From: an uncultured Eudoraea sp.
Lineage (GTDB): Bacteria > Bacteroidota > Bacteroidia > Flavobacteriales > Flavobacteriaceae
Direction of reading: 5' to 3'
DNA: 64,000 nt
Assembly: GCF_947490415.1 (NCBI RefSeq)
Contig: NZ_CANLGX010000001.1
Span: 620,001 to 684,000, forward strand
Shown: piece by piece, positions 25,186 to 56,518 of the stretch
How the letters are laid out: each line of letters starts with the position of its first letter
Position numbering within the stretch: the first letter of the stretch is position 1
Translations under genes and position numbers: made by a program
The notes under the pieces: generated by a model
Databases searched by the model: none
The model's input: the letters and a program-made list of their open reading frames with translations, nothing else
What the model was told of the DNA's origin: nothing

Positions 25186-25228
25186 CAAAACTATGAACCC
25201 CTTTGGAGGATGTCAATGATATAGGTCA
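25186..25228 (-). promoter_or_regulatory. Fnr-type operator and promoter of ompA-like gene
   Basis: TGA-TATAGG-TCA at 25217-25228; on the minus strand TAGTTTTG (25193 to 25186), a perfect TAnnTTTG, begins 24 nt after the palindrome's last base. Start codon is 72 nt from the palindrome. Confidence 0.7.
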
Positions 25229-25364
25229 GTACCGTTTAGTATTTCTATATGAGATTATAGCTTCGTTTCCTGCTATCTAAAAAAATAGACAAATTCAAAG
25301 TGCTTATGGTCGTTTTTGATGAATTTATCTCCAGCACTATCCTACAGGCACGCACGGGAACCCA

Positions 25365-25766
25365 TCAATTCTCTAATTCCATATCACCATCAAACACTTG
25401 CATACATTTTTCGATTTCCTTATTGGCCCCCTCCGCAGTAAAACCAAGTCCAATAGCATATTTAAAAATCAAATTCCGCTCCGCTTCATCAATTTCATGA
25501 TCGGCACAGATAATGCTGAACAGGTCATGGAGCCGTTCAATGCGTTCTTCTAACGAATAGGGTGGAATCAAGTGGTACTTCCGGGGATTTTTAAGTATAG
25601 GTTTTACTTCTTCCTCTGAAACATCGAGCTTAACGGCCAAACGTTTCAAAACAATTTCTTCTTCGGGGTTGATAGGGCCATCTATGATCGCCAACTTTAC
25701 AATAGCGGCGAAATGCGATACTTTACTTTCGTGCTCCCCCGATTCGTAAGCTTCAAAGATTGACAT
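25365..25766 (-). CDS. TerB-like protein
   Basis: A 133-residue all-helical cytosolic protein with the TerB/tellurite-resistance pattern: acidic motif IIDGPINPEEEIVLKRLA and a repeat IICADHEIDEAERNLIFKYA, each with the Asp/Glu spacing of the metal-binding helix pairs. It lies 63 bp after the coiled-coil gene and is presumably transcribed from the same operator-bearing promoter. TerB proteins are thought to sense metal or envelope stress; the exact role is not known. Confidence 0.82.
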   Translation of the reverse strand: MSIFEAYESGEHESKVSHFAAIVKLAIIDGPINPEEEIVLKRLAVKLDVSEEEVKPILKNPRKYHLIPPYSLEERIERLHDLFSIICADHEIDEAERNLIFKYAIGLGFTAEGANKEIEKCMQVFDGDMELEN

Positions 25767-25829
25767 ATTCTGTTTCTTTTATAGGTTGCCGTATATTTAA
25801 TAATTCTTTTTTTTGGCCTTAAGGCGGGC

Positions 25830-26228
25830 TTAAAGCATTCCTCCTATATAATTGAACACCCTTGTTTTGTAATCGTTAAGCCCGGTATAGAATTCCTCAA
25901 AACGATCTTTTAATTCCTTATGGTTTTCCAGGTAAAAGGTATCGCAAGAAATGTCCTGACACTCCAAAATACCTTGTAACTTATCTTCATATTCAGAAAT
26001 TTCTTTCTTTAAGTTCTTCGTCTCCCTTGCTCTGGTCTCAATTTCATGCCTGAACTTTTGCAACCGCTCAAAAAGATTAGGCGTGTTTTCTTTGTAAATA
26101 TGAGCATTCAATAACTGTTCTATAAACTGGGTTTCAGTTTCAATATATCCAAGGATCAATTTCCACCATTGGGCATCATGGTGAAAAGCGGTCAATAGTT
26201 CTTCCTGTGTGTTTTGTTCACCCAACAT
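25830..26228 (-). CDS. Coiled-coil protein of island family, copy 1
   Basis: A 132-residue helical protein without signal peptide. It shares a layout with the proteins at 41260-41661 and 47868-48266: an N-terminal HxxxxW motif (HHDAQWWKLILGYIETE), a middle helix with heptads, and a C-terminal half NHKELKDRFEEFYTGLNDYKTRVFNYI ending the chain. No named family. First gene of a two-gene unit with terB, 55 nt downstream of an Fnr-type palindrome. Confidence 0.72.
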   Translation of the reverse strand: MLGEQNTQEELLTAFHHDAQWWKLILGYIETETQFIEQLLNAHIYKENTPNLFERLQKFRHEIETRARETKNLKKEISEYEDKLQGILECQDISCDTFYLENHKELKDRFEEFYTGLNDYKTRVFNYIGGML

Positions 26229-26251: not shown

Positions 26252-26294
26252 AAAAGTTACGTTTTTTGGTAACGCTTTTAAATGATCCATATCA
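26252..26294 (-). promoter_or_regulatory. Fnr-type operator, coiled-coil/terB operon
   Basis: TGA-TCCATA-TCA at 26283-26294, with the minus-strand -7 box TAACTTTT (26259 to 26252) beginning 24 nt beyond it. Start codon 55 nt away. Confidence 0.7.
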
Positions 26295-26311: not shown

Positions 26312-27340
26312 CTAAGAAATTTGTAATACTTTTGCCCCCCTGATTTTTTGTTCCTTTACCTCAATAAGTGCTTTATTTACCTGTTCTAAAGGATACAATT
26401 GGTACTCGGGTTTAATGGAGGCCTTTTCCGCCAGCTCCAAAAAATCGGACACATCTTTGGCTGTTAGATTAGCGACCGACTTAATATTTTTCTCCATCCA
26501 AAGATGATCCTGGTAGGACAGGTTTTGCAGATATTCCCGGTCCTTATTTTCCTTTCGAATAGCGTTGATAATCAATCGGCCTCCCTTTTCCAAATTGCGA
26601 AGTGCTTCCACAACAGGAGCCCATGCAGGAGTGGTGTCGATAATGGCATCGAGCTTTTCGGGGGATGTATCAGTCGTTTTACCAGACCAGATCGCCCCTA
26701 GTTCCATGGCAAATTGCCTTTCCTCAGCTTTTCTCGCAAACACAAAAACTTTGGTATTCGAATAACGATGTTTGATCATTTTGAGTACCAAATGTGCCGA
26801 AGCACCAAACCCCATAAGTCCCAAATTATCCCCGTCCCTAATTTGGGCAAGCTGAATAGAACGGTAACCGATAGCACCAGCACATAGCATAGGTGCTGCT
26901 TCAGCATCAGTAAAAAAATGAGGAATAGAACAGGCGTATTTTTCTGGAACGGTCATATATTCTGCATAACCTCCATTTACGTCTTTTCCCGTTGCAACAA
27001 AATCATCGCAAAGGTTTTCATTACCCTCTAAACAAAATTTGCATTTGCCACAGGCGGAAAAGATCCAGGCTACGCCAACCCTATCTCCTACCCTGAATTT
27101 TGAAGTGCCTATACCTAATTTTTCTACAACACCAATAACCTGATGGCCAGGTACCACTGGAAGTTTTGGAGGTTTTAATCTTCCTTCGATTTCATCAAGT
27201 TCAGTATGGCAAACCCCACAGACCGAAATTTTAATGCGTACTTCATTTTTTTTTGGTTCAGGAATGGGAATATCGCACAATTGAAGAGGTGCTCTGTTTT
27301 CTTTCAGATCAGATATTTGGTTTAATATCATTGCTTTCAT
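26312..27340 (-). CDS. Zinc-dependent alcohol dehydrogenase
   Basis: A 342-residue medium-chain dehydrogenase. The catalytic zinc site is CGVCHTELDEIEG with VVPGHQVIGVV; the structural zinc loop is CGKCKFCLEGNENLC; the NAD(P)-binding loop is LMGFGASAHL. Closest in layout to AdhA-like class enzymes that reduce aldehydes or oxidise primary alcohols. Single gene, 55 nt downstream of an Fnr-type palindrome and divergent from the bactofilin-like operon, consistent with use under oxygen limitation. Confidence 0.92.
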   Translation of the reverse strand: MKAMILNQISDLKENRAPLQLCDIPIPEPKKNEVRIKISVCGVCHTELDEIEGRLKPPKLPVVPGHQVIGVVEKLGIGTSKFRVGDRVGVAWIFSACGKCKFCLEGNENLCDDFVATGKDVNGGYAEYMTVPEKYACSIPHFFTDAEAAPMLCAGAIGYRSIQLAQIRDGDNLGLMGFGASAHLVLKMIKHRYSNTKVFVFARKAEERQFAMELGAIWSGKTTDTSPEKLDAIIDTTPAWAPVVEALRNLEKGGRLIINAIRKENKDREYLQNLSYQDHLWMEKNIKSVANLTAKDVSDFLELAEKASIKPEYQLYPLEQVNKALIEVKEQKIRGAKVLQIS

Positions 27341-27363: not shown

Positions 27364-27406
27364 TAAAAATAAGCGCAATGCTTCATGCCTGCCATGACCT
27401 TTATCA
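27364..27406 (-). promoter_or_regulatory. Fnr-type operator of alcohol dehydrogenase
   Basis: TGA-CCTTTA-TCA at 27395-27406, with the minus-strand box TATTTTTA (27371 to 27364) exactly 24 nt beyond. Start codon 55 nt away. Confidence 0.72.
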
Positions 27407-27471: not shown

Positions 27472-27514
27472 TGACCTAAATCATTTCATAAGTGACACAA
27501 TATGAATTCCTTTG
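27472..27514 (+). promoter_or_regulatory. Fnr-type operator of bactofilin-like operon
   Basis: TGA-CCTAAA-TCA at 27472-27483; box TTCCTTTG at 27507-27514 begins 24 nt after it. The transcript should start near 27519, so the frame's upstream GTG at 27492 cannot be the start codon. The start at 27537 is 54 nt from the palindrome. Confidence 0.72.
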
Positions 27515-27536
27515 GATACCATTAAAAATCATGATT

Positions 27537-28727
27537 ATGAAAACAAAGACACTTTTATTCATTTGGTTACTCCCTTTTTTAGTGATCTCGCAATTTAAAA
27601 CCGGGGAGGATATCACCATTTCAACTCCTCAGAACGACGATGTTTACCTGACAGGCAAGGATATAAGTATTGATGCAATGGTCAAAGGGGATTTAGTAGC
27701 CGCTGGCAGCTATATTACCGTAAACGATTCTATTACCCAGGATCTTATTGTGGCCGGTGGTGAGATAATTGTCAAAGGCTATGTGGCAGATGATATACGT
27801 ATGGCTGGTGGAAAACTGACCATTGACTCAGAAGTCGGCGATGATGTCATCGTTGCCGGTGGCGAACTTACTATTACCAAAGATGCCGTGATAAATGGCA
27901 ACCTGATAACCGTGGGAGGCAAGACCAGAATAAAAGGAGTCATCATAGGAATGCTAAAAGCAAGCGCGGGTGAACTGGTAATGAATGGCATAGTGGAAGG
28001 CGATGCAATGCTGCAAGGAGGGGAATTGAAAATTGACGGAATAATACATGGCACCTCCGAAATCGTGGCAGAAGATCTTGAAATCGGTGAAAATGCCCAA
28101 TTTCATAAAGATGTTTCTTATTGGTCGGAAGACGGTCAAATCGATTTTAAGAATTCGCTGTTCAATGCAACGGCCAAACTAGATGAAACCCTGATGGGCG
28201 AACATGAGGAAATTCCCTGGAAATTCTTTGGTATTGCCGCTTTTGGCTTTTGGGTCTTTTATATACTTTCAGCATTTTTGGTCATCCTGTTATTGAATTA
28301 CTTTTTTAAACCTCTTCTTACCGAGGCGGTTACCTATATCAAAGAAGATTTGTGGAAAAGTTTTGGCTACGGTCTTATTTATCTTTTTGGCCTGCCTATC
28401 CTTATCGCGTTTACATTTATGATCATCATCGGCATCCCCATCAGCCTGTTCCTTCTGTCGTTCTATCTTTTTAGTTTGCTGTTCGGGCATTTAGTTGGAG
28501 CCTTGCTGCTTACCTATTATTTGGAAAAACGAAATGGCCAACCCTGGGGAGTTTGGAGAACCTCGTTTATAGCACTGGGCTTTGCAATTGTCTTACGATT
28601 ATTAACTTTTATTCCCTTGTTGGGGTTTCTAATTGCATTCCTGGTAATGACACTTGCGTATGGTTTATTGGCCTACACGATATGGCAAAATAGAAATCGA
28701 AAAAATCCAAAATTAGTTGAAGAATGA
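27537..28727 (+). CDS. Bactofilin-like beta-helix membrane protein
   Basis: About 396 residues: signal peptide (MKTKTLLFIWLLPFLVIS), a right-handed beta-helix built of about ten short imperfect repeats of the type V-x-GDVxxAGGxLxI (for example DVIVAGGELTITKDAVINGN), and four C-terminal transmembrane helices (about 240-385) with LIYLFGLPILIAFTFMIIIG. The repeats resemble bactofilin/polymer-forming domains but face the periplasm here. First gene of an operon with a hydrolase (4-nt overlap) and a phosphoribosyltransferase. Confidence 0.8.
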   Translation: MKTKTLLFIWLLPFLVISQFKTGEDITISTPQNDDVYLTGKDISIDAMVKGDLVAAGSYITVNDSITQDLIVAGGEIIVKGYVADDIRMAGGKLTIDSEVGDDVIVAGGELTITKDAVINGNLITVGGKTRIKGVIIGMLKASAGELVMNGIVEGDAMLQGGELKIDGIIHGTSEIVAEDLEIGENAQFHKDVSYWSEDGQIDFKNSLFNATAKLDETLMGEHEEIPWKFFGIAAFGFWVFYILSAFLVILLLNYFFKPLLTEAVTYIKEDLWKSFGYGLIYLFGLPILIAFTFMIIIGIPISLFLLSFYLFSLLFGHLVGALLLTYYLEKRNGQPWGVWRTSFIALGFAIVLRLLTFIPLLGFLIAFLVMTLAYGLLAYTIWQNRNRKNPKLVEE

Positions 28728-32544: not shown

Positions 32545-32587
32545 TAAATATCATGAGAATTAAGTCCAGCTGCAATGATCTATGTCA
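32545..32587 (-). promoter_or_regulatory. Fnr-type operator of the RNA-repair operon
   Basis: TGA-TCTATG-TCA at 32576-32587; minus-strand box GATATTTA (32552 to 32545), an imperfect match, sits at the standard 24-nt phase. Start codon 54 nt away. Confidence 0.6.
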
Positions 32588-33112: not shown

Positions 33113-34282
33113 TCAAAACCTAAAAACAGCGTTCATCGGACTTTCCTTTACGGGCATTTGTTCAGGAGGCAAAAAATACACTTCACCCCCTTGTTCAAAA
33201 GTTAGCAGAGCTGCCAAATTGGTCAATGATACATTGTTAATTTCGTTTTTCTGATCTATTGTAACTTCATTGTCCTTCTTATCATAAATGCCAAATACAT
33301 CGCCGCCTTCTTCTATAAAGAGTGTGTCAATCTTGCCATTGATAGCAGCATTAACAATGACATCTATCTCATAAGAAGTCTTCTGTGTATGGTATAATTC
33401 GTTGAACTTGTTAATCTTAGTAAACTGAGGTCGCCTAAAATATTCCTCAACCAGCGCCCAGGATTCCCGATGTCTTTCATCATCATTTTTATATTGAGGG
33501 TCTCCTGGCAAGTGCTTGTCATACAGATTGTGATGTGTATTTGCTTCTGCATACATCGCGTACAAGCGATCAGTACATGAAAGAACCAAGGGAGCCTTCG
33601 AATCTGTGGCAATTTTTTTTACGCCATCATCCAACATCCTGAAGTACCGGAACAATTCATCCTTTTCGTCTTCCTTTCCCTCTCCCTGACCATGGAACGA
33701 TGCCCCATGTGTAGCTTGCCCACTCCTGAACTGCAAATTCTTTTGTTCATAATCCGATCCAACGGCATCTTCCAGTTGTCCCGGGGCGAAATCCTCCAGA
33801 TATAAATCCTTAAAAGAGTAACGTGATGCCTGATATAGTTTTACATAATCCTGGCTAAGATCCAACAGATAGTATAGCCCATCGTTATGATATAATGGCA
33901 GCAGGGGCAAAAGATAAAAATGGCCCGCTACATAGGTTTTTGCATCGAATGATATGGGAACCATATAATATCTCATCCCCTTCTCTGAATCCAAAAAAAT
34001 AGCCAATCCATCTGAGGGGTTCCTCCACAGTTGTACCTTGTCTAAAAGCTGCTCTACAGGTTCGAGATATTCCTTTATTTCGTTCATATGCATTTGATGT
34101 TCAATCAACTTTTTCTGTACCTCGTTGATACTTTGTCTTAGCCGGGCCTGCGCTAAATGCATATTCTGTTCCTTGCCTTTTTTATCCATGGGCAGGAATA
34201 TGGAAACACAATAAAGACTGCGTGTTTCGGCTAGGGTTTCAAAGTCTTTTTTAGGCAGTGGATGTTTTTCGGAAGTATTCAT
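33113..34282 (-). CDS. baeRF-type protein (eRF1-like fold)
   Basis: A 389-residue cytosolic protein resembling the bacterial-archaeal eRF1-like (baeRF) families: an N-terminal domain with RSLYCVSIFLPMDKKG, a middle domain with HGQGEGKEDEKDELFRYFR and PLVLSCTDRLYAMYAE, and a C-terminal pelota-like part IDTLFIEEGGDVFGIYD ending LTFEQGGEVYFLPPEQMP. Such proteins are proposed to act on ribosomes under stress, parallel to ribosome hibernation or rescue. Single gene 49 nt from an Fnr-type palindrome. Confidence 0.72.
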   Translation of the reverse strand: MNTSEKHPLPKKDFETLAETRSLYCVSIFLPMDKKGKEQNMHLAQARLRQSINEVQKKLIEHQMHMNEIKEYLEPVEQLLDKVQLWRNPSDGLAIFLDSEKGMRYYMVPISFDAKTYVAGHFYLLPLLPLYHNDGLYYLLDLSQDYVKLYQASRYSFKDLYLEDFAPGQLEDAVGSDYEQKNLQFRSGQATHGASFHGQGEGKEDEKDELFRYFRMLDDGVKKIATDSKAPLVLSCTDRLYAMYAEANTHHNLYDKHLPGDPQYKNDDERHRESWALVEEYFRRPQFTKINKFNELYHTQKTSYEIDVIVNAAINGKIDTLFIEEGGDVFGIYDKKDNEVTIDQKNEINNVSLTNLAALLTFEQGGEVYFLPPEQMPVKESPMNAVFRF

Positions 34283-34299: not shown

Positions 34300-34342
34300 C
34301 CAAAATACCCAAATCAAAGAAAACTCAAAATGATTTTAATCA
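34300..34342 (-). promoter_or_regulatory. Fnr-type operator of baeRF gene
   Basis: TGA-TTTTAA-TCA at 34331-34342; minus-strand box TATTTTGG (34307 to 34300) starts 24 nt beyond. Start codon 49 nt away. Confidence 0.65.
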
Positions 34343-35017: not shown

Positions 35018-35060
35018 TGATTTATATCATTTCTGATTAGCGTCAATGTAACTTCCTTTA
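35018..35060 (+). promoter_or_regulatory. Tandem Fnr-type operators before pfkB
   Basis: Two palindromes: TGA-TTTATA-TCA (35018-35029) and TGA-TTAGCG-TCA (35034-35045), centres 16 bp apart. The first has box TTCCTTTA (35053-35060) at the standard 24-nt phase. The second lacks a good box and may modulate. Confidence 0.65.
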
Positions 35061-35160: not shown

Positions 35161-36129
35161 ATGAATAAGATTATCACCCTGACCATGAACCCTGTGGTCG
35201 ATAAAGACACCTCTGTAGCAGGCATTGTGCCCAACAAAAAGTTGCGATGCAAAGCACCTGCCTATTATGCAGGAGGTGGAGGCATCAATGTTTCAAGGGC
35301 TTTGAAGAACCTGGGTTTTGAATCGCTTTGTATGTATTTGTCGGGCGGCCCAATGGGAATCCACTTGCAACAATTAATATCCAATAATAATATCGAACAA
35401 AAAGTAGTTCCAATTGAAGGGTGGACCCGTGAAAACCTTTCCGTAACCGATACAAATACCCAATTGCAATACCGATTTGTAGTGCCGGGGCCCATCGTAA
35501 AAAAAGAAGAATGGAAGGGGGTACTGATCCTTTTGGAGGAAATTTTACAAAAAGACGATTTTTTAGTCGCCAGTGGAAAATTGCCTCCCAAAATGCCAAC
35601 TGATTTTTATGTGCAGGTCTCGAAAATCACGGATAAAAAGGAAGCGAAACTGGTGTTGGATACTTCCGGCGAAGCATTGCTCCCCAGCATGAAAGCTAAT
35701 ATTTTTCTAATGAAGCCCAACTTAGGTGAGCTGAGCACTATTCTGCATGTAGCATCCATCTCGGCTATGGAACTGGAACCTTTGGCCAAAAGGCTCCTTG
35801 AAGAAATTAGTTGTAAAGTACTCGTGGTTTCCTTAGGTGCGAAAGGTGCATTATGGGCGACCAAAAATGAAATAGAATATATTCCCGCCCCTACGGTACA
35901 TCAAAAAAGTACCATTGGCGCAGGCGACAGTATGGTCGCTGGTATGGTATTCAGCCTAACCCATGGAAAATCATTAGGGGAAGCCGTAAAATATGGCGTA
36001 GCATGTGGTACGGCCGCTACTCTTCATCCCGGCACACAACTTTGTAATAAGGAAGATGCGGACAAATTATATGAGTGGATAGAAAATAATACTGTTAAAA
36101 AAGCGAAAAAAATCCCCAAACTGATCTAG
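35161..36129 (+). CDS. pfkB: 6-phosphofructokinase II (PfkB)
   Basis: A 322-residue ribokinase-fold kinase phosphorylating fructose 6-phosphate. It tracks Escherichia coli PfkB closely: ITLTMNPVVDKDTSV, KLRCKAPAYYAGGGGINVSRAL, GWTRENLSV, YRFVVPGP, LDTSGEAL and the catalytic STIGAGDSMVAGM. C-terminal KKAKKIPKLI is a short basic tail. In dormancy-type islands this ATP-dependent isozyme supports glycolysis under oxygen limitation. Its stop codon lies inside the operator of the next transcription unit. Confidence 0.93.
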   Translation: MNKIITLTMNPVVDKDTSVAGIVPNKKLRCKAPAYYAGGGGINVSRALKNLGFESLCMYLSGGPMGIHLQQLISNNNIEQKVVPIEGWTRENLSVTDTNTQLQYRFVVPGPIVKKEEWKGVLILLEEILQKDDFLVASGKLPPKMPTDFYVQVSKITDKKEAKLVLDTSGEALLPSMKANIFLMKPNLGELSTILHVASISAMELEPLAKRLLEEISCKVLVVSLGAKGALWATKNEIEYIPAPTVHQKSTIGAGDSMVAGMVFSLTHGKSLGEAVKYGVACGTAATLHPGTQLCNKEDADKLYEWIENNTVKKAKKIPKLI

Positions 36130-36164
36130 GTCATTTGAAACCAGAAATTGACCTTGTATTTTTG
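36122..36164 (+). promoter_or_regulatory. Fnr-type operator of small RNA unit 1
   Basis: TGA-TCTAGG-TCA at 36122-36133 overlaps the pfkB stop codon; perfect box TATTTTTG at 36157-36164 begins 24 nt after its last base. Predicted start near 36169. Confidence 0.72.
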
Positions 36165-36381: not shown

Positions 36382-36399
36382 CAAAAAATAGTATTAACC

Positions 36400-36442
36400 T
36401 GACGAAGGTCATGTTGAACCTGGACGCCATTCCTTAGTTTAG
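36400..36442 (+). promoter_or_regulatory. Fnr-type operator of small RNA unit 2
   Basis: TGA-CGAAGG-TCA at 36400-36411; box TAGTTTAG (36435-36442), one mismatch to TAnnTTTG counting only the TTTG part, at the standard 24-nt phase. Confidence 0.68.
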
Positions 36443-36688: not shown

Positions 36689-36695
36689 AAAGTAT

Positions 36696-36727: not shown

Positions 36728-36742
36728 TAGTAAAGGAAATGG

Positions 36743-36953: not shown

Positions 36954-36958
36954 TCCCG

Positions 36959-36999: not shown

Positions 37000-37055
37000 T
37001 TTTAACCCGATTTAGATTTTACATCAATAATTTTTTCTTTCTCGTATAGTACGGG

Positions 37056-46225: not shown

Positions 46226-46268
46226 TGATGTAAATCATTTTAACGCCCATAATGCAATACTAACTTTG
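46226..46268 (+). promoter_or_regulatory. Fnr-type operator of BON gene
   Basis: TGA-TGTAAA-TCA at 46226-46237; perfect box TAACTTTG at 46261-46268 begins exactly 24 nt after it. Best example of the arrangement. Confidence 0.78.
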
Positions 46269-46306: not shown

Positions 46307-46975
46307 ATGAAAACGGATGTGGAAATTAAAGATGATGTACTGGACGAATTGGCATGGCAACCAGACATTGATGAGACCGAAATAGGGGTCATTGTTGAAA
46401 ACGGAGTAGTAACGCTTAGTGGTGTAGTAGATAGCTATTCTAAAAAAATTGCCGCTGAAAAAGCGGTAAAAGGCGTTGAGGGCGTAAAAGCCTTGGCAGG
46501 AGATATCGAGGTAAAATATGGTGAGGCATTCAAAAAAACAGATAAGGAAATTGCCAAGGCTGTTGTGGATGCCCTGGAATGGGACTCTTCTGTGCCAGAA
46601 GAGGATCTGACTATTAAAGTTGAAGACGGTTGGGTATACCTTTCTGGTGAAGTCAACTGGAGCTATCAAAAAAAGGCAGCGAAAAGTGCCGTTGAAAATT
46701 TACTCGGCGTTCGGAGCGTTATTAATAACATTAACATCAGACAAGATGTAAAACCTTTTGAGGTAAAAGAGAAAATCAAGAAAGCTTTCGAACGAGCAGC
46801 AGAAATCGATGCGAACAATATTGCTGTTATAACAGATGGCCATACAGTAACTTTAAAGGGCAAGGTAAGTTCCATTAAAGAAAAAGAGGATGCGGAAACA
46901 GCAGCATATCGCGCTCCTGGTGTCAATTATGTAAACAATGAGCTTAAGGTGCAATATTATACCGAATACGCATAG
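46307..46975 (+). CDS. Triple BON-domain protein
   Basis: A 222-residue protein with three BON domains (about 3-70, 78-145, 150-218), each with the pattern V-E-N/D-G-x-V-x-L-x-G-x-V (VENGVVTLSGVVDS, VEDGWVYLSGEVNW, ITDGHTVTLKGKVSS). BON domains bind phospholipid membranes. No signal peptide, so it would act in the cytoplasm at the membrane, or it uses an unusual route out. Strong terminator follows. A decayed copy lies 200 bp downstream. Confidence 0.9.
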   Translation: MKTDVEIKDDVLDELAWQPDIDETEIGVIVENGVVTLSGVVDSYSKKIAAEKAVKGVEGVKALAGDIEVKYGEAFKKTDKEIAKAVVDALEWDSSVPEEDLTIKVEDGWVYLSGEVNWSYQKKAAKSAVENLLGVRSVINNINIRQDVKPFEVKEKIKKAFERAAEIDANNIAVITDGHTVTLKGKVSSIKEKEDAETAAYRAPGVNYVNNELKVQYYTEYA

Positions 46976-47867: not shown

Positions 47868-48266
47868 TCATAGTTTTTTAACATACCTAAAGACCATTTT
47901 TTTAAAATCGCGAAAATCACTCGTAAAAAGTTGCATACGTTTCTTTAAGTTTTTATGCCTGTCTCTGTAATCGGCATCCGCAATTCCTTTTTCGCCTTTT
48001 TCCAAACGGGCCAATAATTTTTCATGACTGATAATATCGTCCACCAGATAGTCGAACAGATTCTCATGAATCTTGTCCAGATTACTTAGCATTTTGCCAT
48101 ATTCCAATTCCCCGCCGTCTTTTTTGTGCAACAGATCGGCGAAGAACCTGGTCTCGTCTTTCCAGAAGGCAACGGTTTCCAGCCATTCCAGACTCTCTCG
48201 ATGCAGAATGTCCAATCCTACACCCAATAAAATATCTGAATTTGGATTTGAAGTTTTCGTGTTCAT
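47868..48266 (-). CDS. Coiled-coil protein of island family, copy 3
   Basis: About 132 residues. It shares the N-terminal HRESLEWLETVAFWKDET and C-terminal DRHKNLKKRMQLFTSDFRDFKKMVFRYV with copies 1 and 2, closest to copy 1 at the C-terminus. I start at 48266 (MNTKTSNPNS), which avoids an overlap with the sigma-factor gene and leaves a 19-bp gap. Its place beside a sigma factor raises the idea of a regulatory partner. Confidence 0.72.
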   Translation of the reverse strand: MNTKTSNPNSDILLGVGLDILHRESLEWLETVAFWKDETRFFADLLHKKDGGELEYGKMLSNLDKIHENLFDYLVDDIISHEKLLARLEKGEKGIADADYRDRHKNLKKRMQLFTSDFRDFKKMVFRYVKKL

Positions 48267-48285
48267 AATTGTATTAATTATAGAT

Positions 48286-49053
48286 TCATTCCTTTGTTCT
48301 ATTATAAAAACTCGTTTTGAGTGCCTTACGGGCATCTTCTAAAAGTTGTTTCACTTCCTGAAGGCTTTGATTTCTAATTCCTGCGATTTCCTCGACATTA
48401 AAATGGTGTTCCGTTGCAAGTTCGTAAACAGTGCGCATAGGTAGCGGCAAATGGTACAATACCATTTCGGCATGCTTCCTGATATTCTCCTCGCCCCATT
48501 CTTTGTCTAGCTTGGCAATCATTTCATTATTGTCATCTTCTACAAAAACCTGGTTCAGTACATAATCCTTATTTCCGTAGGATATATCATCCAATTCTTC
48601 CATCATGACCAGATCACCATCGCCGTCAGTAGAGAATTTTTCTTCCATAGCATTCCAGGCAGGTTTTGAAAAATCATCGATGTTCTGAAAGAAAACCTCA
48701 TCGAATTCCTCATCTGTAATGGTATTCTCGAGCAGTTCATCGGCCTTTTTGAATATCCATGGGTATAAGTCTTTTTCCCTTTTTACCTCATCAAAATGTT
48801 CATATGCCGTGATGAATAATTGATCTATAAAATCGGCAGGTCTGTATTTTCCCTGGGGAAGATTTCCTATTGATATCGCAGTATTTAGTCTTTTGACAAT
48901 GTACCGATTTACCTTAGGCAAGATTTTTAACAACAATTCGTTAAACTCTTTTTTCTCACCCATTTTCTTATACCGGACCAAATCAGAAAAAGTACTAGCC
49001 ACATATACTCGGAACTCCTTTTGGCTTTTGTAATACGTTCTCGTGTTTTCCAT
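48286..49053 (-). CDS. ECF-like sigma factor, divergent
   Basis: A 255-residue protein with a region 2-like helix bundle (about 30-130: LLKILPKVNRYIVKRL, RPADFIDQLFITAYEHFD, PWIFKKADELL) and a region 4 helix-turn-helix (about 200-250: YHLPLPMRTVYELATEHHF then VEEIAGIRNQSLQEVKQLLE). The acidic linker (about 130-190) is unusually long. Its own promoter carries the Fnr-type palindrome, so it may pass the signal on to a second promoter class. No anti-sigma gene is next to it. Confidence 0.75.
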   Translation of the reverse strand: MENTRTYYKSQKEFRVYVASTFSDLVRYKKMGEKKEFNELLLKILPKVNRYIVKRLNTAISIGNLPQGKYRPADFIDQLFITAYEHFDEVKREKDLYPWIFKKADELLENTITDEEFDEVFFQNIDDFSKPAWNAMEEKFSTDGDGDLVMMEELDDISYGNKDYVLNQVFVEDDNNEMIAKLDKEWGEENIRKHAEMVLYHLPLPMRTVYELATEHHFNVEEIAGIRNQSLQEVKQLLEDARKALKTSFYNRTKE

Positions 49054-49073: not shown

Positions 49074-49116
49074 CAAAAATGCGAACATAAAACGTTCGGT
49101 GAAATGATTAGGATCA
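49074..49116 (-). promoter_or_regulatory. Fnr-type operator of sigma-factor operon
   Basis: TGA-TTAGGA-TCA at 49105-49116; minus-strand box CATTTTTG (49081 to 49074) begins 24 nt beyond. Start codon 52 nt away. Confidence 0.7.
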
Positions 49117-49168: not shown

Positions 49169-49211
49169 TGATTTGCATCATTTTCAATGATCCTTGTTAA
49201 GGCTACTTTTA
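49169..49211 (+). promoter_or_regulatory. Fnr-type operator of polymerase-esterase operon
   Basis: TGA-TTTGCA-TCA at 49169-49180; box TACTTTTA (49204-49211) starts 24 nt after it. A 12-codon frame MGFIKNRNEERK (49243-49281) follows, before the first gene at 49342. Confidence 0.68.
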
Positions 49212-49341: not shown

Positions 49342-50262
49342 ATGAGATCTGTAGAGAATCCATATAGCGACAAAATCTATTTTCCTGTTTCGGGGATTAC
49401 CAAGGGAGACCTGATCCGGTATTACGAAGAAATAGCAGATTATATGTTGCCCTATCTCCAAGACCGTCCGCTGACAATGCACCGGTTTCCAAACGGCATA
49501 ACAAAAGAAGGCTTCTATCAAAAGAATGCGTCGGACTATTTCCCTGATTGGATCAAAACAGAAAAAATAAAGAAAGAAGATGGTTGGGTTAAGCATGTTA
49601 TCTGCAATAGCAAGGATACTTTGTGTTATTTGGCAGCGCAGGGAACGATTACCTTTCATGTCACCTTAAGCAAGATCGATAAACTGAACTACCCTGATAA
49701 ATTGATATTAGACCTAGATCCATCAGGCCAAAATTTTGATTCAGTCGTGAATGGCGCCCAAATACTTCGGAGATTGTTGGAGGAAGAATTGAAACTCTCA
49801 ACTTATGCGATGCTTACGGGTTCCAACGGACTTCATCTGCTAGTTCCACTTGTGCGTGTCGAAAATTTTGACGAGGTACGGGGTTTTGCCAAAAGAGTTG
49901 CCGCGTACCTGGCGAAACTATATCCTGACGATTTTACCATAGAAATGCGAAAAGACCAACGCAGGGGTCGATTGTTCCTGGATTACCTTCGGAATTCGTA
50001 TGCGCAAACCGCGGTTTGTCCGTTTTCCGTGCGAGCGTTTGAAGGTGCCCCTGTCGCCGTACCTATTGCTTGGGACGAATTGGCAGAAATGTCCAATTCC
50101 CGTGCTTTTAACATACATACCATTTTTGATCGTTTGAAGGAAAAGTCAAATCCCTGGCAAAATTTTGGGAAAAACGTCAAACTCTTGACTAGCGCCAAAA
50201 AGAAACTGGAAAAATTAATGGACAGACAGGTTGACGCCGATACTATTTCAAAATCAATTTAA
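49342..50262 (+). CDS. Stand-alone LigD-type primase-polymerase
   Basis: A 306-residue protein equal to the polymerase domain of bacterial NHEJ ligase LigD: PVSGITKGDLIRYYEEIADYM, LTMHRFPNGITKEGFYQKNA, metal-binding LILDLDPSG, and GSNGLHLLVPL. No ligase or nuclease domain and no Ku gene in the window. Such enzymes fill in DNA or RNA ends. The ATG at 49342 follows a GAAAGG purine run. First gene of an operon with an erythromycin esterase (12-bp gap). Confidence 0.9.
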   Translation: MRSVENPYSDKIYFPVSGITKGDLIRYYEEIADYMLPYLQDRPLTMHRFPNGITKEGFYQKNASDYFPDWIKTEKIKKEDGWVKHVICNSKDTLCYLAAQGTITFHVTLSKIDKLNYPDKLILDLDPSGQNFDSVVNGAQILRRLLEEELKLSTYAMLTGSNGLHLLVPLVRVENFDEVRGFAKRVAAYLAKLYPDDFTIEMRKDQRRGRLFLDYLRNSYAQTAVCPFSVRAFEGAPVAVPIAWDELAEMSNSRAFNIHTIFDRLKEKSNPWQNFGKNVKLLTSAKKKLEKLMDRQVDADTISKSI

Positions 50263-50274: not shown

Positions 50275-51585
50275 ATGAATACTTCGGAGCAAAGAATAGC
50301 GGTCCTCGATAAAGTAAGCAAGAAATTGGAGAATGCTTTGGATTTAGATCCCCTGATAGAAAAGCTCTCCGATTCACAAGTAGTATTATTGGGCGAGGCC
50401 TCTCACGGCACCCACGAATATTACACTTGGCGCACAGCCATAAGCAAAAGGTTAATCGAAGAACACGGTTTTAATTTTATTGCTGTAGAAGGCGATTGGC
50501 CAGATTTTTATCGCGTGAACCGATATGTAAAACACTATGAAAACAGTCATAGCAGTTCCGTAGAAGTATTAAAGGAATTCAACCGATGGCCTACCTGGAT
50601 GTGGGCCAACTGGGAAATAGAGACCCTGATCAACTGGTTGCACATGCACAATGAAAAGCTGCCTGCCAATGAAAGGGTGGGTATCTACGGCCTTGACGTT
50701 TATAGCCTATGGGAATCCATGGAAGCCATCATGGACTACCTGAAGACCCACGACCTTAGCTTAGTGCCTTCGGCCAAAAGGGCCCTGGGCTGTTTTGAAC
50801 CTTTCGGCGATGAAAAAGGCATGGCCTACGCAAGATCATTGCAGCGTTTTCTACCCAAAACCTGCGAAAACGAAGTGGTATCATTGCTTCAGAATATTAA
50901 AAATCGTTCGCAACATTTCAATACCGATTTAGAGGCCTCACTAAATATGGAACAGAATGCCCATATCGCGAAAAATGCGGAAGCCTATTACCGTTCCATG
51001 GTACATGCCAACCAAAGTTCATGGAACCTGCGCGACCATCATATGATGGATACCCTAAAGCGCCTGCTCCATTTTCACGGACCCAAATCAAAGGCAATTA
51101 TCTGGGAACATAACACCCATGTTGGCGATGCCAGGGCAACGGACATGGCATTGGACAGTACCGTAAATGTAGGTCAGTTGGTACGCGAGCAATTGCCGGG
51201 CCTCAATCCTAAAATAGTAGGTTTTGGATCATACAAAGGTACGGTCGTAGCGAGTGCAGAATGGGGCGCTCCCATGCGGAATATGCATGTGCCGGAAGCC
51301 ATCGAAGGTTCGTGGGAACAGCTTTTGCACCAAACCGGAAAAGGGGATCAATTGTTGTTTATGAACGACTTAAAGGGAAACAACCTCTTTAAGGACCCGA
51401 TCGGGCAACGTGCCATTGGGGTGGTGTACCACCCGCACTTTGAGAAAATAGGTAATTACGTACCCTCGGTTATGCCCGAACGCTATGATGCCTTTATCTA
51501 TATCGATACTTCGGAAGGGGTGCATGCTATGGATGTGTATGTAGATAAATCGCAACTGCCCGAAACTTACCCCTGGGCATTTTAA
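50275..51585 (+). CDS. Erythromycin esterase-family hydrolase
   Basis: A 436-residue protein of the erythromycin esterase family: LLGEASHGTHEYYTWRTA (Glu and His of the active site), FIAVEGDWPDFYRVNRYV, YGLDVYSLWESM, and IIWEHNTHVGDARATDM with the second His. Cytosolic. Members in stress islands are not known to act on antibiotics; the natural substrate is open. Preceded by the LigD-type polymerase gene in one operon. Confidence 0.9.
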   Translation: MNTSEQRIAVLDKVSKKLENALDLDPLIEKLSDSQVVLLGEASHGTHEYYTWRTAISKRLIEEHGFNFIAVEGDWPDFYRVNRYVKHYENSHSSSVEVLKEFNRWPTWMWANWEIETLINWLHMHNEKLPANERVGIYGLDVYSLWESMEAIMDYLKTHDLSLVPSAKRALGCFEPFGDEKGMAYARSLQRFLPKTCENEVVSLLQNIKNRSQHFNTDLEASLNMEQNAHIAKNAEAYYRSMVHANQSSWNLRDHHMMDTLKRLLHFHGPKSKAIIWEHNTHVGDARATDMALDSTVNVGQLVREQLPGLNPKIVGFGSYKGTVVASAEWGAPMRNMHVPEAIEGSWEQLLHQTGKGDQLLFMNDLKGNNLFKDPIGQRAIGVVYHPHFEKIGNYVPSVMPERYDAFIYIDTSEGVHAMDVYVDKSQLPETYPWAF

Positions 51586-51889: not shown

Positions 51890-51933
51890 TGACCAAAATC
51901 ATTAACTCGTATAGTAGTTTTTAAATAAATTTC
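51890..51933 (+). promoter_or_regulatory. Fnr-type operator of desaturase gene
   Basis: TGA-CCAAAA-TCA at 51890-51901; box TAAATTTC (51926-51933) begins 25 nt after it, one more than the usual phase. Start codon at 51962. Confidence 0.66.
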
Positions 51934-51961: not shown

Positions 51962-53077
51962 ATGGAAAGTGTTAAGTTCGTGAGGCAAAACATTAAGGAG
52001 CGAGAGTTTGCCCATGAGGTACGCAAACGTGTACGTGCCTATTTCAAAGATAATAACAAGTCTATTTACGGCAACTTTAATATGTACCTGAAATCGGTTG
52101 TTATTTTAGGTGTTTATTTAGTGCCCTTTATCATATTGCTCACCAGTCCCGTATCAGCCTGGACAGCGCTGGTTTTCGCTGTTATAATGGGTATAGGGGA
52201 AGCCGGTGTGGGGATGTCAATCATGCATGACGGGGTACATCATGCCTATTCTTCAAAAAAATGGGTAAATGATCTCGCTTCGTCTACCATGTTCCTTTTA
52301 GGCAGCAATATCTTTAATTGGAGAATACAGCATAACATTCAGCATCATACGTTTACCAATATTTTCAATTATGACCCTGATATTTCTAACTTAAAGATTA
52401 TCCGTTTGTGCCAATACGGGCCACTTAAAAAGTATCATCGTTATCAGCATTTCTATGCCTTTCCGCTTTATGGCCTCATGACATTTACAAGATTGTTTGG
52501 TGAAATTGGAGTATTGCTGGAGTATAACAGAAAAGGTATAACCCTCGAGCAAAATGTTAACCCAACATGGCAACTGGTAAAACTCATTGCCATTAAAATT
52601 GCCTACTTTGTAACTATCATTGGCATGCCCTTATATTTTACAGATTTCACTTTCTGGCAAATATTAATCGGCTTTATTGTTTTGCATGTAACCGCAGGGA
52701 TGATCATGAGCACAGTATTTCAAATGGCACATGTGGTAGAAGGCACGGATCAGGTTCTTGCTGATAAAGACCAACAAATTAAAAACGATTGGCTGGTACA
52801 TCAACTTCACACCACATCAGATTTTGGAAGAAAGAATGGCTTATTCAGCTGGTATATCGGCGGACTGGATTTTCAGATTGAGCACCATATTTTTCAAAAT
52901 ATATGCCATGTGCATTATCCTGCCATTGCCGGTATTATAAAAACAACTGCTGAAGAATACGGGTTCACCTATAATCTTAAACCCAATGTTTTGAGTGCAC
53001 TAGCCTCACACTATCGCAGGTTAAAAGAGTTGGGGAAACCAGATGCAACATTGCCTGTCATTACATCCGTTCAGTAG
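51962..53077 (+). CDS. Membrane fatty acid desaturase
   Basis: A 371-residue di-iron desaturase with about four transmembrane helices and the three His boxes HDGVHHAY (about 89-94), HNIQHHTF (about 124-129) and FQIEHHIF (about 302). QxxHH as third box is typical of front-end or acyl-CoA/acyl-lipid desaturases; no cytochrome b5 domain. It would adjust membrane fluidity. Because the reaction needs oxygen, control by an oxygen-type regulator would make sense as repression or as response to recovery. Confidence 0.9.
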   Translation: MESVKFVRQNIKEREFAHEVRKRVRAYFKDNNKSIYGNFNMYLKSVVILGVYLVPFIILLTSPVSAWTALVFAVIMGIGEAGVGMSIMHDGVHHAYSSKKWVNDLASSTMFLLGSNIFNWRIQHNIQHHTFTNIFNYDPDISNLKIIRLCQYGPLKKYHRYQHFYAFPLYGLMTFTRLFGEIGVLLEYNRKGITLEQNVNPTWQLVKLIAIKIAYFVTIIGMPLYFTDFTFWQILIGFIVLHVTAGMIMSTVFQMAHVVEGTDQVLADKDQQIKNDWLVHQLHTTSDFGRKNGLFSWYIGGLDFQIEHHIFQNICHVHYPAIAGIIKTTAEEYGFTYNLKPNVLSALASHYRRLKELGKPDATLPVITSVQ

Positions 53078-53215: not shown

Positions 53216-55870
53216 TTATTCCCGGCCAAAAATACTTCCCACGCGCTTTACGAACTGGGCCAGGACCAAAGAACCAAAAGCAAACAAAATAGTAACTCCT
53301 AAATGTCCGGAAGAAAAGGTCTCCAGAGAAAGTGCCCGGGCCACCGGCGGTATTAGATAGGCCCCGAGCGTAATCATTATAGACAACACAATAGCGCCCC
53401 ATACCCACGGATTTTTAGTCACTTCATTGACAAAGAATAATTCTTGACGTTTGGGCATGTTGAAGACATTGAACAATTGTGCCAAAACCAAAGTATAGAA
53501 TGCCATGTTATTAATGGCCATGGGGGCTAGTTTTAAAATGAAGTTTCCATAGGCCACAACGCCTAATACGGAGGCACTTATAGAGAGACCGTATATCATT
53601 GTGTCGTACCAGTCTTTTCGCTCCATAATGGGGGCTTTTGGGTTTTTGGGTGGTTGATCCATAATATCTTCTTCACCTTTTCCCAAACCAAGGGCTAAAG
53701 CGGGAAATACATCGGTTACAAGGTTAAGGAACAAGATCTGCAAGGGTAACAATGGTGCCGGAAGATTCAATAAAGCTGCCAGTCCTACGGATAAAATTTC
53801 GGCCAGATTGCACGACAAGAGATACACCACGAACTGACGGATGTTCTGAAAGACTACCCTGCCTTGCCTGATAGCGAGTTCAATGGCCGTAAACTTGTCG
53901 TTCTTTAAAATTACATCTGCAACTTCGCGCGCCGCTTCCGTACCCCGAATACCCATTGCTATGCCAATATTTGCTTTTTTTAAGGCCGGGACATCGTTGA
54001 TCCCGTCGCCGATCATTCCTACAATATGATTGTTATCTTGATAGAAAGTTACTAAATCCAATTTCTGTTCAGGTGTTACCCTTGCGAAAACGGATGCGTT
54101 GAGTAACTTTGCGGTACAATTGTCACTTTTGTCAAGACCTTGCTGCAAATCTTTACCCAGCAAGACCTTTTCTTTAGGCTCATCCTCCTTTAATATCCCT
54201 ACTTCCTCTGCAATTTTTTTAGAAGTTCCCGGGTGGTCACCTGTTACCATCACGACCCGTATGCCCGCTTTCCTGTAAATGTCGATAGTTGCCTTAACAT
54301 CTTCGCGCGCGGGGTCTATAAAACCAATGATACCCAAAAAAGTCAATTCGTGCAATAAGCTTTCCTTTGTTGGGCATTCTGAGGTTTCTTTTATGGCAAA
54401 AGCCAAAGTGCGCAGGCCTTGTGAGGCCAGTTTATCCAGTTTTTTATCCCAATCTTCTTTAAGGTCGAAGGGTTTTCTTCCAGATGTATCCCAATAAAAA
54501 CTACAATAGGGAACGAGACTTTCATATGCCCCTTTAACATAAACTTCAAATTTTTTTTGATACTGGTTTACTGTGGCCATTAATTTCCGTTTTGCATCAA
54601 AAGGGAGTTCCATTATTTCGGGGTGTTCATTTTTGATAGACACAGTATCGTAGTCCAATTGTTCGGCAAAATCCATTAGCGCAAGCTCTATAGAATCACC
54701 AGGTTCGTCTTTTGGCATACCCACAACATTGTTGCAGAGAATGGAAGCCAATATTATTTTATTGAAAGCAGAATATTTGCTTCCAGAATCCAAAATATCC
54801 GATTTGACCGGATATTCTTTTGTCAAAGATTCATTTCCGAAAAGTACGGTATGCACTTTCATCTGATCCTCGGTCAGCGTTCCCGTTTTGTCCGTACAGA
54901 TAATATCCGTTGCCCCTAAGGTCTGTACCGCTTCCAGTTTTTTGATGATTACTTTTTTCTCTGACAATCTCAACATGCCTTGGGCCAATGCAATTGTCGC
55001 CACGATTGGGAGTCCTTCGGGTATTGCTGCAACGGCAAGGGCTACTCCCGTTTCTATCATTAGTAGTAGGTCTATTCCGCGAATATAACCCGTGACAATA
55101 ATCAATACCGCAAAAAAAACAGTCAACCAAATGAGCCATTGGCTTAACTGGTTCAATTTCTTTTCCAGAGGAGTTCGTTCTTTTTCAGCATCCAGGCCCA
55201 TCTGCTGAATATTGCCTAATTGGGTGTGCTTACCTGTCGCGGTTACAATAGCTCTTCCCGATCCTGCAAGCACCGAAGTTCCCCTAAATACCATATTGGA
55301 TTGATCAGTAATCGGGGTTTTTGCCTTTAGCTCCTCCACTTTCTTATTAACTGGAGCGCTTTCGCCCGTTAAAGCAGATTCCTTTACTGAAAGATTATCG
55401 ACTTCGATCAGTCGGCCATCTGCAGGAATTACATCCCCGGTATATAGCAGTACCACATCGCCCGGCACTACTACGGAAGCCTTGAGCCTGATTTTTTTTC
55501 CAGATCGAATAACATATGTCGTAGCCTGACCCATTTTCCGCAAGGCCTCCAGGGAGCGTATCGCCTGAAGCTCCATAAAAAAGCCAATACCGACCGAAAT
55601 TAATATTACAATGATTATGGCAATCCCCTCCAGGAGATCGCTAAATACAAAAGCCAGTACGGCGGCAACCGCAAGAATATAAATTATCGGATTCAGCAAT
55701 TGATCGACAAATATGATCCACCGCTTTTTAGGGCCTTGTTCCGGAATTTGGTTAAAACCATAGTGTTCAAGGCGCTGGGTAGCTTCTTTCCTGCCTAGAC
55801 CTTGAACATCATCGCTGTCTAATTGGGCAACAATCTCTTTTATGGAAAGGGTGCAAGGGTCTTGAGGCAT
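53216..55870 (-). CDS. P-type Ca2+-ATPase-like cation pump
   Basis: About 884 residues, P2A-type. N-terminal cation-ATPase domain, actuator loop LTGES, PEGLP motif in helix 4 (VAAIPEGLPIVATIAL), phospho-Asp in CTDKTGTLTEDQ, hinge MIGDGINDVPALKKA, and about ten membrane helices. Closest to bacterial Ca2+ or Mn2+ exporters. I start at 55870 (MPQDPCTLS); the frame extends further without a recognisable domain. It lies 99 bp after hsp20 on the same strand and probably shares its promoter. Confidence 0.92.
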   Translation of the reverse strand: MPQDPCTLSIKEIVAQLDSDDVQGLGRKEATQRLEHYGFNQIPEQGPKKRWIIFVDQLLNPIIYILAVAAVLAFVFSDLLEGIAIIIVILISVGIGFFMELQAIRSLEALRKMGQATTYVIRSGKKIRLKASVVVPGDVVLLYTGDVIPADGRLIEVDNLSVKESALTGESAPVNKKVEELKAKTPITDQSNMVFRGTSVLAGSGRAIVTATGKHTQLGNIQQMGLDAEKERTPLEKKLNQLSQWLIWLTVFFAVLIIVTGYIRGIDLLLMIETGVALAVAAIPEGLPIVATIALAQGMLRLSEKKVIIKKLEAVQTLGATDIICTDKTGTLTEDQMKVHTVLFGNESLTKEYPVKSDILDSGSKYSAFNKIILASILCNNVVGMPKDEPGDSIELALMDFAEQLDYDTVSIKNEHPEIMELPFDAKRKLMATVNQYQKKFEVYVKGAYESLVPYCSFYWDTSGRKPFDLKEDWDKKLDKLASQGLRTLAFAIKETSECPTKESLLHELTFLGIIGFIDPAREDVKATIDIYRKAGIRVVMVTGDHPGTSKKIAEEVGILKEDEPKEKVLLGKDLQQGLDKSDNCTAKLLNASVFARVTPEQKLDLVTFYQDNNHIVGMIGDGINDVPALKKANIGIAMGIRGTEAAREVADVILKNDKFTAIELAIRQGRVVFQNIRQFVVYLLSCNLAEILSVGLAALLNLPAPLLPLQILFLNLVTDVFPALALGLGKGEEDIMDQPPKNPKAPIMERKDWYDTMIYGLSISASVLGVVAYGNFILKLAPMAINNMAFYTLVLAQLFNVFNMPKRQELFFVNEVTKNPWVWGAIVLSIMITLGAYLIPPVARALSLETFSSGHLGVTILFAFGSLVLAQFVKRVGSIFGRE

Positions 55871-55969
55871 TATTTTGAGTTTTGCAGGAAAATATAATGC
55901 CCCCTGACCAATACTATTCAAATGGACGCCTGGTTATTGGCAAGAGGGCAATCAGAATTCAAATGGTCA

Positions 55970-56434
55970 TTAAGCGATTTCTATCACTTTGGGTGGACGT
56001 TTTTTGGCCTCTTCTTTTTTAGTCAGCTTAAAGCTTAAGATACCGTCTTTGTATTTGGCCTTAATTTCTTCTTCTTTTACGCTCTCGGGTATTTTCAGAG
56101 AACGTTCAAAAGAATTGTAACTAAATTCCCTTCGGGTATAGTTTTCTTCTTTTTCTTCTGCCTTGCTTGACTTTTCAGCAGAGATGTTGAGGCAGCCATC
56201 ATCAATGGTTACATTGAAATCTTTTTTGCCAAAACCAGGAGCGGCAAGTTCGATCTCGAAATTGTCATCCGTTTCCCTGATGTTTAAAGCAGGTTCCATT
56301 CTTTTCCCATTCCAAAAGTTAGTAGGTAGCATATTTCTTCCCCATCTGCGGTTATCCAAAAAATCGTCCATATCAAAGAAATCTTGGGTTACCAGACTGC
56401 CAAAAGGCCTTCTTCTAAATTTTACCAGTGTCAT
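55970..56434 (-). CDS. Hsp20 small heat-shock protein
   Basis: A 154-residue alpha-crystallin chaperone. The crystallin domain spans about 45-140 (LNIRETDDNFEIELAAPGF, NISAEKSSKAEE, YKDGILSFKLTK) and the C-terminal I-x-I anchor is seen in PKVIEIA. It holds unfolding proteins. First gene of a probable operon with the P-type ATPase; its promoter carries the Fnr-type palindrome 73 nt from the start. Confidence 0.95.
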   Translation of the reverse strand: MTLVKFRRRPFGSLVTQDFFDMDDFLDNRRWGRNMLPTNFWNGKRMEPALNIRETDDNFEIELAAPGFGKKDFNVTIDDGCLNISAEKSSKAEEKEENYTRREFSYNSFERSLKIPESVKEEEIKAKYKDGILSFKLTKKEEAKKRPPKVIEIA

Positions 56435-56475
56435 GATCTTATATTTTTAAGTTAAACAATTAATTAAACATGACC

Positions 56476-56518
56476 CGAAGGTACCTTGTGCGGCCTATAT
56501 GCGAAATGATTTGGGTCA
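56476..56518 (-). promoter_or_regulatory. Fnr-type operator of hsp20
   Basis: TGA-TTTGGG-TCA at 56507-56518; minus-strand box TACCTTCG (56483 to 56476), near TAnnTTTG, begins 24 nt beyond. Rightmost exact site of the island. Confidence 0.68.

Follow-up and report, generated by a model that had tools for sequence, protein, structure and literature searches.

The window analysed here covers 64,000 nucleotides from an uncultured Eudoraea sp. (C1:620001-684000 of genome G000, which comprises 3.89 Mb in 18 contigs). Between 25.2 and 56.6 kb of the window lies an island of stress-related genes, in which palindromes of the form TGA-N6-TCA, predicted to be Crp/Fnr-type operators, stand upstream of most transcription units and are followed by a promoter box resembling TAnnTTTG. 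Boxes were scored by matches to the six fixed letters of TAnnTTTG, at least 4/6 being taken as a working box, and the gap was counted as the bases between palindrome and box. An earlier note on this DNA had listed 19 palindromes, and all 19 were found at the coordinates it gave. When every gap was scored, the best box (at least 4/6) stood at gap 23 for 15 of the 19, namely 25217, 26283, 27395, 27472, 32576, 34331, 35018, 36122, 36400, 39053 (on both strands), 41705, 46226, 49105, 49169 and 56507. Conservation was followed in a comparison set of 16 loci of named genomes around relatives of the gene baeRF7, a site being counted as phased with a box of at least 4/6. Among named records, the closest to the island is from an uncultured Eudoraea, with 86% identity over the baeRF7 protein. 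The operators of the island are the following.

25186-25228, minus strand: operator with palindrome 25217-25228 and box TAGTTTTG at gap 23, no mismatches; an OmpA-domain gene (23940-25145) lies downstream.
26252-26294, minus strand: phased operator, box TAACTTTT, before gene 25830-26228 and a TerB-like gene (25365-25766); kept in L119 and L133.
27364-27406, minus strand: phased operator, box TATTTTTA, before an alcohol dehydrogenase gene (26312-27340), whose site is also found in L133.
27472-27514, plus strand: phased operator, box TTCCTTTG, before an operon of gene 27492-28727, an alpha-beta hydrolase and a phosphoribosyltransferase; kept in L121.
32545-32587, minus strand: phased operator, weak box GATATTTA (4/6), before methyltransferase, archease and RtcB genes; kept in L119, L120 and L121.
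34300-34342, minus strand: phased operator, box TATTTTGG, before the baeRF family-7 gene (baeRF7, 33113-34282).
35018-35060, plus strand: phased operator, box TTCCTTTA (4/6), before the PfkB gene (35161-36129), with the second palindrome 35034; kept in L119 and L133.
36122-36164, plus strand: phased operator, box TATTTTTG, overlapping the pfkB stop codon, before candidate small RNA 1.
36400-36442, plus strand: phased operator, box TAGTTTAG, before candidate small RNA 2.
39022-39064, minus strand: phased operator, leftward box TTAATTTG, toward gene 38587-39024 and a DegP-type protease gene (37056-38561); kept in L119 and L134.
39053-39095, plus strand: rightward box TAATTTTG on palindrome 39053, common to the leftward box, toward an FtsH paralogue (39232-41220); kept in L119 and L134.
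41705-41747, plus strand: phased operator, weak box TACATTAA (4/6), before a CheB-CheR-PAS gene (41844-44825) and a histidine kinase gene (44815-46173).
46226-46268, plus strand: phased operator, box TAACTTTG, before a BON-domain gene (46307-46975), no mismatches.
49074-49116, minus strand: phased operator, box CATTTTTG, before a divergent extracytoplasmic function (ECF) sigma-like gene (48286-49053); kept in L134.
49169-49211, plus strand: phased operator, box TACTTTTA, before a LigD primase-polymerase gene (49342-50262) and an erythromycin-esterase-family gene (50275-51585); kept in L134.
51890-51933, plus strand: operator with box TAAATTTC at gap 24, before a fatty-acid desaturase gene (51962-53077).
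56476-56518, minus strand: phased operator, box TACCTTCG, before an Hsp20 gene (55970-56434) and a Ca2+-type P-ATPase gene (53216-55921).

The true start of gene 27492-28727 probably lies downstream of the listed GTG, and that of gene 38587-39024 probably lies further in. Behind the operator at 49074-49116, region 47868-49053 holds the ECF-sigma-like gene, whose protein stays under all cut-offs, together with a small partner gene, and the two could possibly be a sigma/anti-sigma pair within the regulon.

The intergenic space of the island amounts to 4,703 bases, the genes being hand-picked from the list of open reading frames (ORFs). It holds 20 palindromes, or 19 once the gaps between genes are joined end to end; 1,000 dinucleotide shuffles averaged 1.44 and never gave more than 7. 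This bears out the excess over chance that the earlier note had estimated. The remaining window has 6,755 intergenic bases with 2 palindromes, and the entire window has 33 palindromes against 19.5 expected. On both strands of these 33, boxes of at least 5/6 occurred 15 times at gap 23 (13 of these in the island), compared with a mean of 0.69 and a maximum of 4, at gap 21, for the other 54 gaps; boxes at 4/6 letters numbered 25 at gap 23 against a mean of 4.91 and a maximum of 11 elsewhere. One intergenic palindrome, 32836, is absent from the earlier list, and neither it nor the listed 36988 matches the refined form TGAY-N4-RTCA. Outside the island, palindromes 2930-2941 and 17259-17270 do not match the refined motif, yet have a 5/6 box at gap 23.

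A gap of 24 intervening bases was also tried and rejected: even with a looser palindrome it gave only 3 perfect matches genome-wide, and the reversed control 1. Therefore the fixed distance of 24 nt claimed earlier means 23 intervening bases, and read so it agrees with 15 of the 19 sites and with the gap statistics. When gaps of 8 to 38 were allowed in the whole genome, 22 of 40 perfect matches fell on gap 23, and the other 18 were spread over the remaining 30 gaps. It is hardly credible, then, that the palindromes are linked to promoters by chance or are repressor sites. The few sites without a box would fit such a reading, as would a palindrome near -27.5 in the promoter of the FNR-like regulator gene described below, but gap 23 takes more than half of the perfect matches, the shuffles never exceed 7 against 19 palindromes, and sites are kept in relatives. 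Chance promoters are ruled out by the shuffles and gap controls.

In Escherichia coli, CRP and FNR are centred at -41.5 on class II promoters. In Flavobacterium psychrophilum the box occupies -12 to -5, according to mapped starts in the available text of PMC9723704, so a gap of 23 bases places our palindrome at -47 to -36 with its centre at -41.5, in agreement with the class II position proposed earlier. The refined motif is [A/C]TGAY-N4-RTCAT, and the T after the promoter-proximal half is found in 69 of 74 phased sites; members of this set outside the window were taken from regions chosen for phased sites, and their gap histogram was not used as evidence of phasing. No conserved TTG was found at the -33 position among the 74 sites, the columns there being only T-rich. 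A centre at -41.5, a fixed spacing to a -10 type element and the lack of a strong -35 element were thus all found in the sequences, and the island promoters, with starts computed from the box, appear to be of the class II Crp/Fnr-dependent type. A Crp/Fnr dimer at the operator would then activate transcription in class II manner, touching RNA polymerase in place of the absent -33 contact.

Through the genome scan, 22 perfect matches to the refined pattern and 102 with at most one mismatch were revealed, and the reversed pattern gave 5. The island is the largest cluster among the near matches listed, a listing that is full for contig 1, although one of its 14 is intragenic (C1:649558) and probably due to chance. 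Further clusters, picked out post hoc, lie in C4:471-488 kb and, more loosely, in C2:31-62 kb (8 matches each), in C1:702-715 kb (6) and in C6:199-211 kb (5), and three of these four match the local density of the island. An operator limited to the island is ruled out by these matches, and the suggestion that the arrangement is particular to it has to be given up. Equal density elsewhere, which the earlier note had named as a result that would speak against it, was not found on average (14 of 102 near matches lie in the island against 0.8 expected by length) and was found locally in the other clusters. Two side observations concern the sites themselves: L108 (G000:C1:748825 and 749429) has near-identical operator segments about 600 bases apart, and at L107 and L109 (C1:703440-703513 and 776519-776602) two distant palindromes have similar flanks on either side. 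Both are probably duplicated promoters.

The genes nearest the phased sites elsewhere include those for CcoNO, CcoI, a cytochrome c, an Rrf2 regulator, HemN (431 bits against a cut-off of 325), pyruvate:ferredoxin oxidoreductase (PFOR), a second 2-oxoacid:ferredoxin oxidoreductase, phosphoenolpyruvate synthase/pyruvate phosphate dikinase (PPDK), an AMP-binding synthetase, several universal stress proteins (USPs), a second Hsp20, a second baeRF7 and the ribosome-hibernation (S30AE) factor HPF. A flavodoxin gene lies 349 bases from its phased-site box, and 16 of the 50 ORFs scanned near phased sites had no Pfam match at 1e-5. Because haem and oxidase genes are among the targets, oxygen can be considered as the signal, and low oxygen is likely to be what the regulon answers. 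In F. psychrophilum, cbb3 and haem synthesis genes go up under oxygen limitation (PMC9723704, available text), and the words 'crp' and 'fnr' are both absent from the available main text of that paper.

Five Crp/Fnr-type genes were found in the genome and none in the window, as the earlier note had expected of the controlling protein. We name them L034 (the FNR-like protein), L035 (a receiver-Crp fusion) and L036, L037 and L038 (other Crp/Fnr paralogues); presence in other genomes was called at 1e-39 for L034, 1e-60 for L035 and 1e-30 for L038. Among 296 genomes of the phylum, the 15 that have both the L034 and the L035 type averaged 12.0 perfect sites each. The mean was 4.52 in the 42 genomes that have L034 alone, 3.25 in the 28 that have L035 alone and 0.36 in the 211 that have neither, and the reversed control gave 24 sites summed over all 296. 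By these counts, sites per genome follow L034 and L035. All 30 same-family genomes drawn had at least two perfect sites. A distant genome of the phylum, G271, combines 28 perfect phased sites with a pair of FNR-like paralogues that lie next to each other (C1:1931408 and 1932321).

It is very improbable that the operator belongs to another paralogue of the L036, L037 or L038 type. The L038 helix reads E-x-x-S-R, nearer to E. coli FNR, and a phased site reaches into the end of the L038 gene. However, genomes with L038/L037-like proteins and without L034 or L035 have 0.24 sites each (n=25), whereas those with L034 or L035 and without L038/L037-like proteins have 3.85 (n=26), a comparison which covers the L037 and L038 types. 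L038 and L037 are ruled out as readers of the operator by this co-occurrence.

L034 is a protein of 231 amino acids, encoded at C6:144 kb beside ccoI and ccoNOP, with a cNMP-binding domain (PF00027, 6.4e-18) and a Crp helix-turn-helix domain (PF13545, 2.5e-15); its top match in the PDB is 2gau, another Crp/Fnr regulator, narrowly before FNR. The cysteines C7, C10, C56 and C109 are invariant in its 30 best matches, its own included. The CxxC pair and C109, which we take to be the equivalent of C122 of FNR, align with cysteines of chains described as 'FNR type regulator', and C56 lies within the cNMP-type domain opposite an alanine in the FNR chains. We infer a rearranged iron-sulfur site in L034, with an oxygen-labile cluster probably bound by these four cysteines. 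The palindrome between L034 and ccoI has a gap of 23 to the ccoI box (4/6) and a gap of 9 to a perfect L034 box (palindrome to L034 box, C6:144794-144822), so that its centre is near -27.5 of the L034 promoter, a position which would suit autorepression of L034.

L035, of 352 amino acids and encoded at C4:478 kb, is a fusion of receiver, cNMP-binding and helix-turn-helix domains, and all 30 matches examined keep the receiver residues D10, D53 and K105. Its gene lies in an apparent operon HPF-USP-PAS kinase-L035 with a phased site and weak box ahead. In its recognition helix E and R are found in 30 of 30, and the position that precedes R is I in 24 and S in 6; because E-x-x-I-R occurs in the recognition helices of both proteins, L035 and L034 would share the operator, and two regulators may read it.

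One could also suppose that only one of the two reads the operator while the other travels along, a reading that we hold possible but doubtful. The same-family genomes with L034 alone keep 2 to 17 perfect sites in 14 of 14 cases, so the fusion is dispensable there. On the other hand, the fusion-only family genomes G053, G130 and G234 have 6, 3 and 7 perfect sites (these are the clean cases, since in G088 of that group a distant FNR-like protein is present too, E 1e-37), G130 retains the small RNA described below together with its operator, and the genomes with both regulators have the highest numbers of sites.

A second rival accepts the class II operator and takes its signal to be something other than oxygen, such as energy charge, nitric oxide, stationary phase or carbon; the cysteine protein would in that case be a thiol or nitric oxide sensor. 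General stress genes are abundant in the island, and the available text of PMC8510549 gives CRP/FNR homologues of a Flavobacteriales bin a carbon-sensing role by their resemblance to MalR. The receiver of L035 also means that at least one input would be a phosphorelay. We regard this rival as unlikely, as the genes targeted elsewhere (cbb3, CcoI, hemN, PFOR) are typical of low oxygen and the CxxC and C122-equivalent of FNR are invariant in L034.

Within the comparison set 58 phased sites were found, and 8 of the 16 loci account for all of them. Many of those in Eudoraea and Maribacter precede the same genes as in the window, with differences in the four central bases and the spacer, and a phased site stands before baeRF7 in 8 of the 16 loci, from Eudoraea, Maribacter and Kaistella. 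Taken together, the gap statistics, the genome scan, the co-occurrence with regulators and the sites kept in relatives support the earlier proposal of a Crp/Fnr-type operator that controls the stress island. We consider it likely, from these sequence comparisons, that the palindrome serves a genome-wide Crp/Fnr regulon as its operator, and that this regulon is of low-oxygen type, works in class II manner and is activated mainly by L034, with L035 as a probable second reader.

Several observations weigh against this interpretation. As the earlier note had described, the box is shifted at two palindromes, 36988 (a 4/6 box at gap 23, yet a perfect one at gap 21) and 51890 (gap 24), and no box was found at 35034 and 36696; in addition, the boxes at 32576, 35018 and 41705 are weak (4/6). 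By the per-genome site counts, which ignore relatedness, no perfect site occurs in 8 of the 42 genomes with L034 alone or in 4 of the 28 with L035 alone, and 7 of the 211 genomes with neither regulator have at least three. L034 has an asparagine and no cysteine at the position of the third N-terminal ligand of FNR (C29 in FNR), its recognition helix reads E-x-x-I-R in 30 of 30 with I where FNR has S, and it scores 108.4 bits against NCBIfam Fnr (NF008365), its top NCBIfam match, under the cut-off of 228. Among relatives, only 30 of the 58 phased sites lie within 400 bases before a homologue of an island gene, and at 8 of the 16 loci, those of Psychroflexus, Sinomicrobium, Saprospiraceae and Bacteroidales, no phased site precedes the baeRF7 homologue.

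The earlier note had also proposed one operator for the whole island. The shared phased code agrees with that. No protein gene is evident downstream of operators 36122 and 36400. They point into a gap of 926 bases between pfkB and degP, in which the longest ORFs of at least 20 amino acids encode 42 (36570-36698) and 47 (36872-37015) residues. As no convincing reading frame was found in the gap, the two are read as promoters of small RNAs.

36169-36386, plus strand: candidate small RNA 1, start predicted from the box, terminator-like hairpin and T-rich tail at about 36346-36383.
36447-36692, plus strand: candidate small RNA 2, a paralogue of RNA 1 (E 1.7e-12) with its own terminator-like hairpin.

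The long hairpin with T-rich tail lies about 180 bases past the predicted start in RNA 1 and about 210 in RNA 2. Neither hairpin was among those listed by an automatic terminator scan, which did list one at 36839-36870 and whose total, 4 against 4.9 in shuffles, showed no excess. Both RNAs fold better than shuffles, with a z value of -3.6 for the RNA from 36169 and, much better, -6.5 for that from 36447. When RNA 1 was aligned with five relatives, changes on both sides occurred in 13 of 56 predicted pairs against 6.3 in shuffles (0 of 500 as high), the structure being derived from the same alignment as the count; the pair types, 31 against 31.8 in shuffles, showed no excess. Rfam 15 gave no match in the window at the gathering score. 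A weak third copy (E 2e-6) was observed at 36663-36879, near the leftward palindrome 36988 with its perfect box at gap 21 and with the hairpin terminator 36839-36870.

A covariance model that starts at the predicted start, with the operator left out, found matches in 11 of 199 genomes of the family, its own included, and none in G397, the only other genome of the same genus listed, or in G182. In 8 of the 10 matches in other genomes an exact TGA-N6-TCA is followed at gap 23 by a box of at least 5/6, and in those 8 the start predicted from the box lies at most 13 bases from the model start. For the two misses, L148 looks spurious and L147 has the palindrome without a box.

The small RNAs have in common a GTTCWTTGAA element near +19. 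Since the contig of the genome itself ends about 112 bases upstream of its 16S gene, the 16S leaders of relatives were used for comparison: of eight leaders from six relatives (L155-L160, L163, L164), inspected by eye, two contain an exact GTTCATTAACATATTG and the other six contain related forms such as GTTCATTGGAATATTG or GTTCGTAGACATATTG. This leader element resembles boxA, and the 5' element of the small RNAs could possibly be a boxA element, which we offer as a lead.

A mechanism may be sketched from these data. The main activator would most likely be L034, which is FNR-like and encoded beside ccoI-ccoNOP, and L035, with its PAS kinase, would read the same operator and add a phosphorelay signal. 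When oxygen drops, both regulators would turn on the high-affinity oxidase and ferredoxin-based metabolism, and also a maintenance programme of proteases, Hsp20, ribosome factors, RNA and DNA repair and small RNAs. We might further speculate, with little confidence, that oxygen and kinase signals are integrated at each class II promoter by an FNR with rearranged cysteines and a receiver-Crp fusion, and that the same code drives a new, hypoxia-induced small RNA family whose boxA-like element may engage the Nus antitermination complex, damping rRNA synthesis while the maintenance proteins of the island are made.

Several known systems are similar in part. The E. coli FNR regulon shares the Crp/Fnr fold, the cbb3/hemN-type targets, the TGAY-N4-RTCA core of its consensus TTGAT-N4-ATCAA and 23 bases from this core to a -10 type box. 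It differs in that here the box is the Bacteroidota TAnnTTTG, the helix is E-x-x-I-R and there is probably a second, receiver-fused reader; L034 lacks the third N-terminal ligand cysteine, has the invariant C56 in the cNMP-type domain instead and stays under the NCBI Fnr cut-off. The FixLJ-FixK cascade also joins a PAS kinase, a receiver domain and a Crp/Fnr DNA-binding output that controls cbb3, but here receiver and Crp are fused in one protein and the operator is probably common to the FNR-like protein. FnrS, an FNR-activated enterobacterial small RNA, is likewise under an FNR-type class II operator, while the RNAs found here have no Rfam match in the window, measure about 215-245 nt, occur in tandem copies and carry a boxA-like 5' element.

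The likeness to the DosR/DevR dormancy regulon of Mycobacterium (and OsdR of Streptomyces) lies in a hypoxia-type programme. PfkB, a P-type ATPase, an esterase and a phosphoribosyltransferase also belong to the DosR-type programme. The difference is that here the linked regulators are of Crp/Fnr type and not DevR-type response regulators, and the operator is TGAY-N4-RTCA instead. USPs, PPDK, alcohol dehydrogenase and a latency heat-shock protein are given for the DosR-type programme in the available text of PMC5069765, in which the words pfkB, erythromycin esterase and phosphoribosyltransferase do not occur. Among the literature matches listed, judged by title and the start of the abstract, none concerned an FNR-type or Crp/Fnr oxygen regulon in flavobacteria, and none concerned receiver-Crp fusions, which is weak evidence in both cases, subscription literature being poorly covered. 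The regulon is of a known kind, and its regulators, promoter type and small RNA branch are new as far as these searches show.

Low-oxygen survival in the group becomes open to direct testing, given an operator whose spacing is fixed to the base, a promoter list, two candidate sensors and a family of small RNAs, and the findings suggest that a DosR-like set of survival genes came under a different regulator in Bacteroidota.

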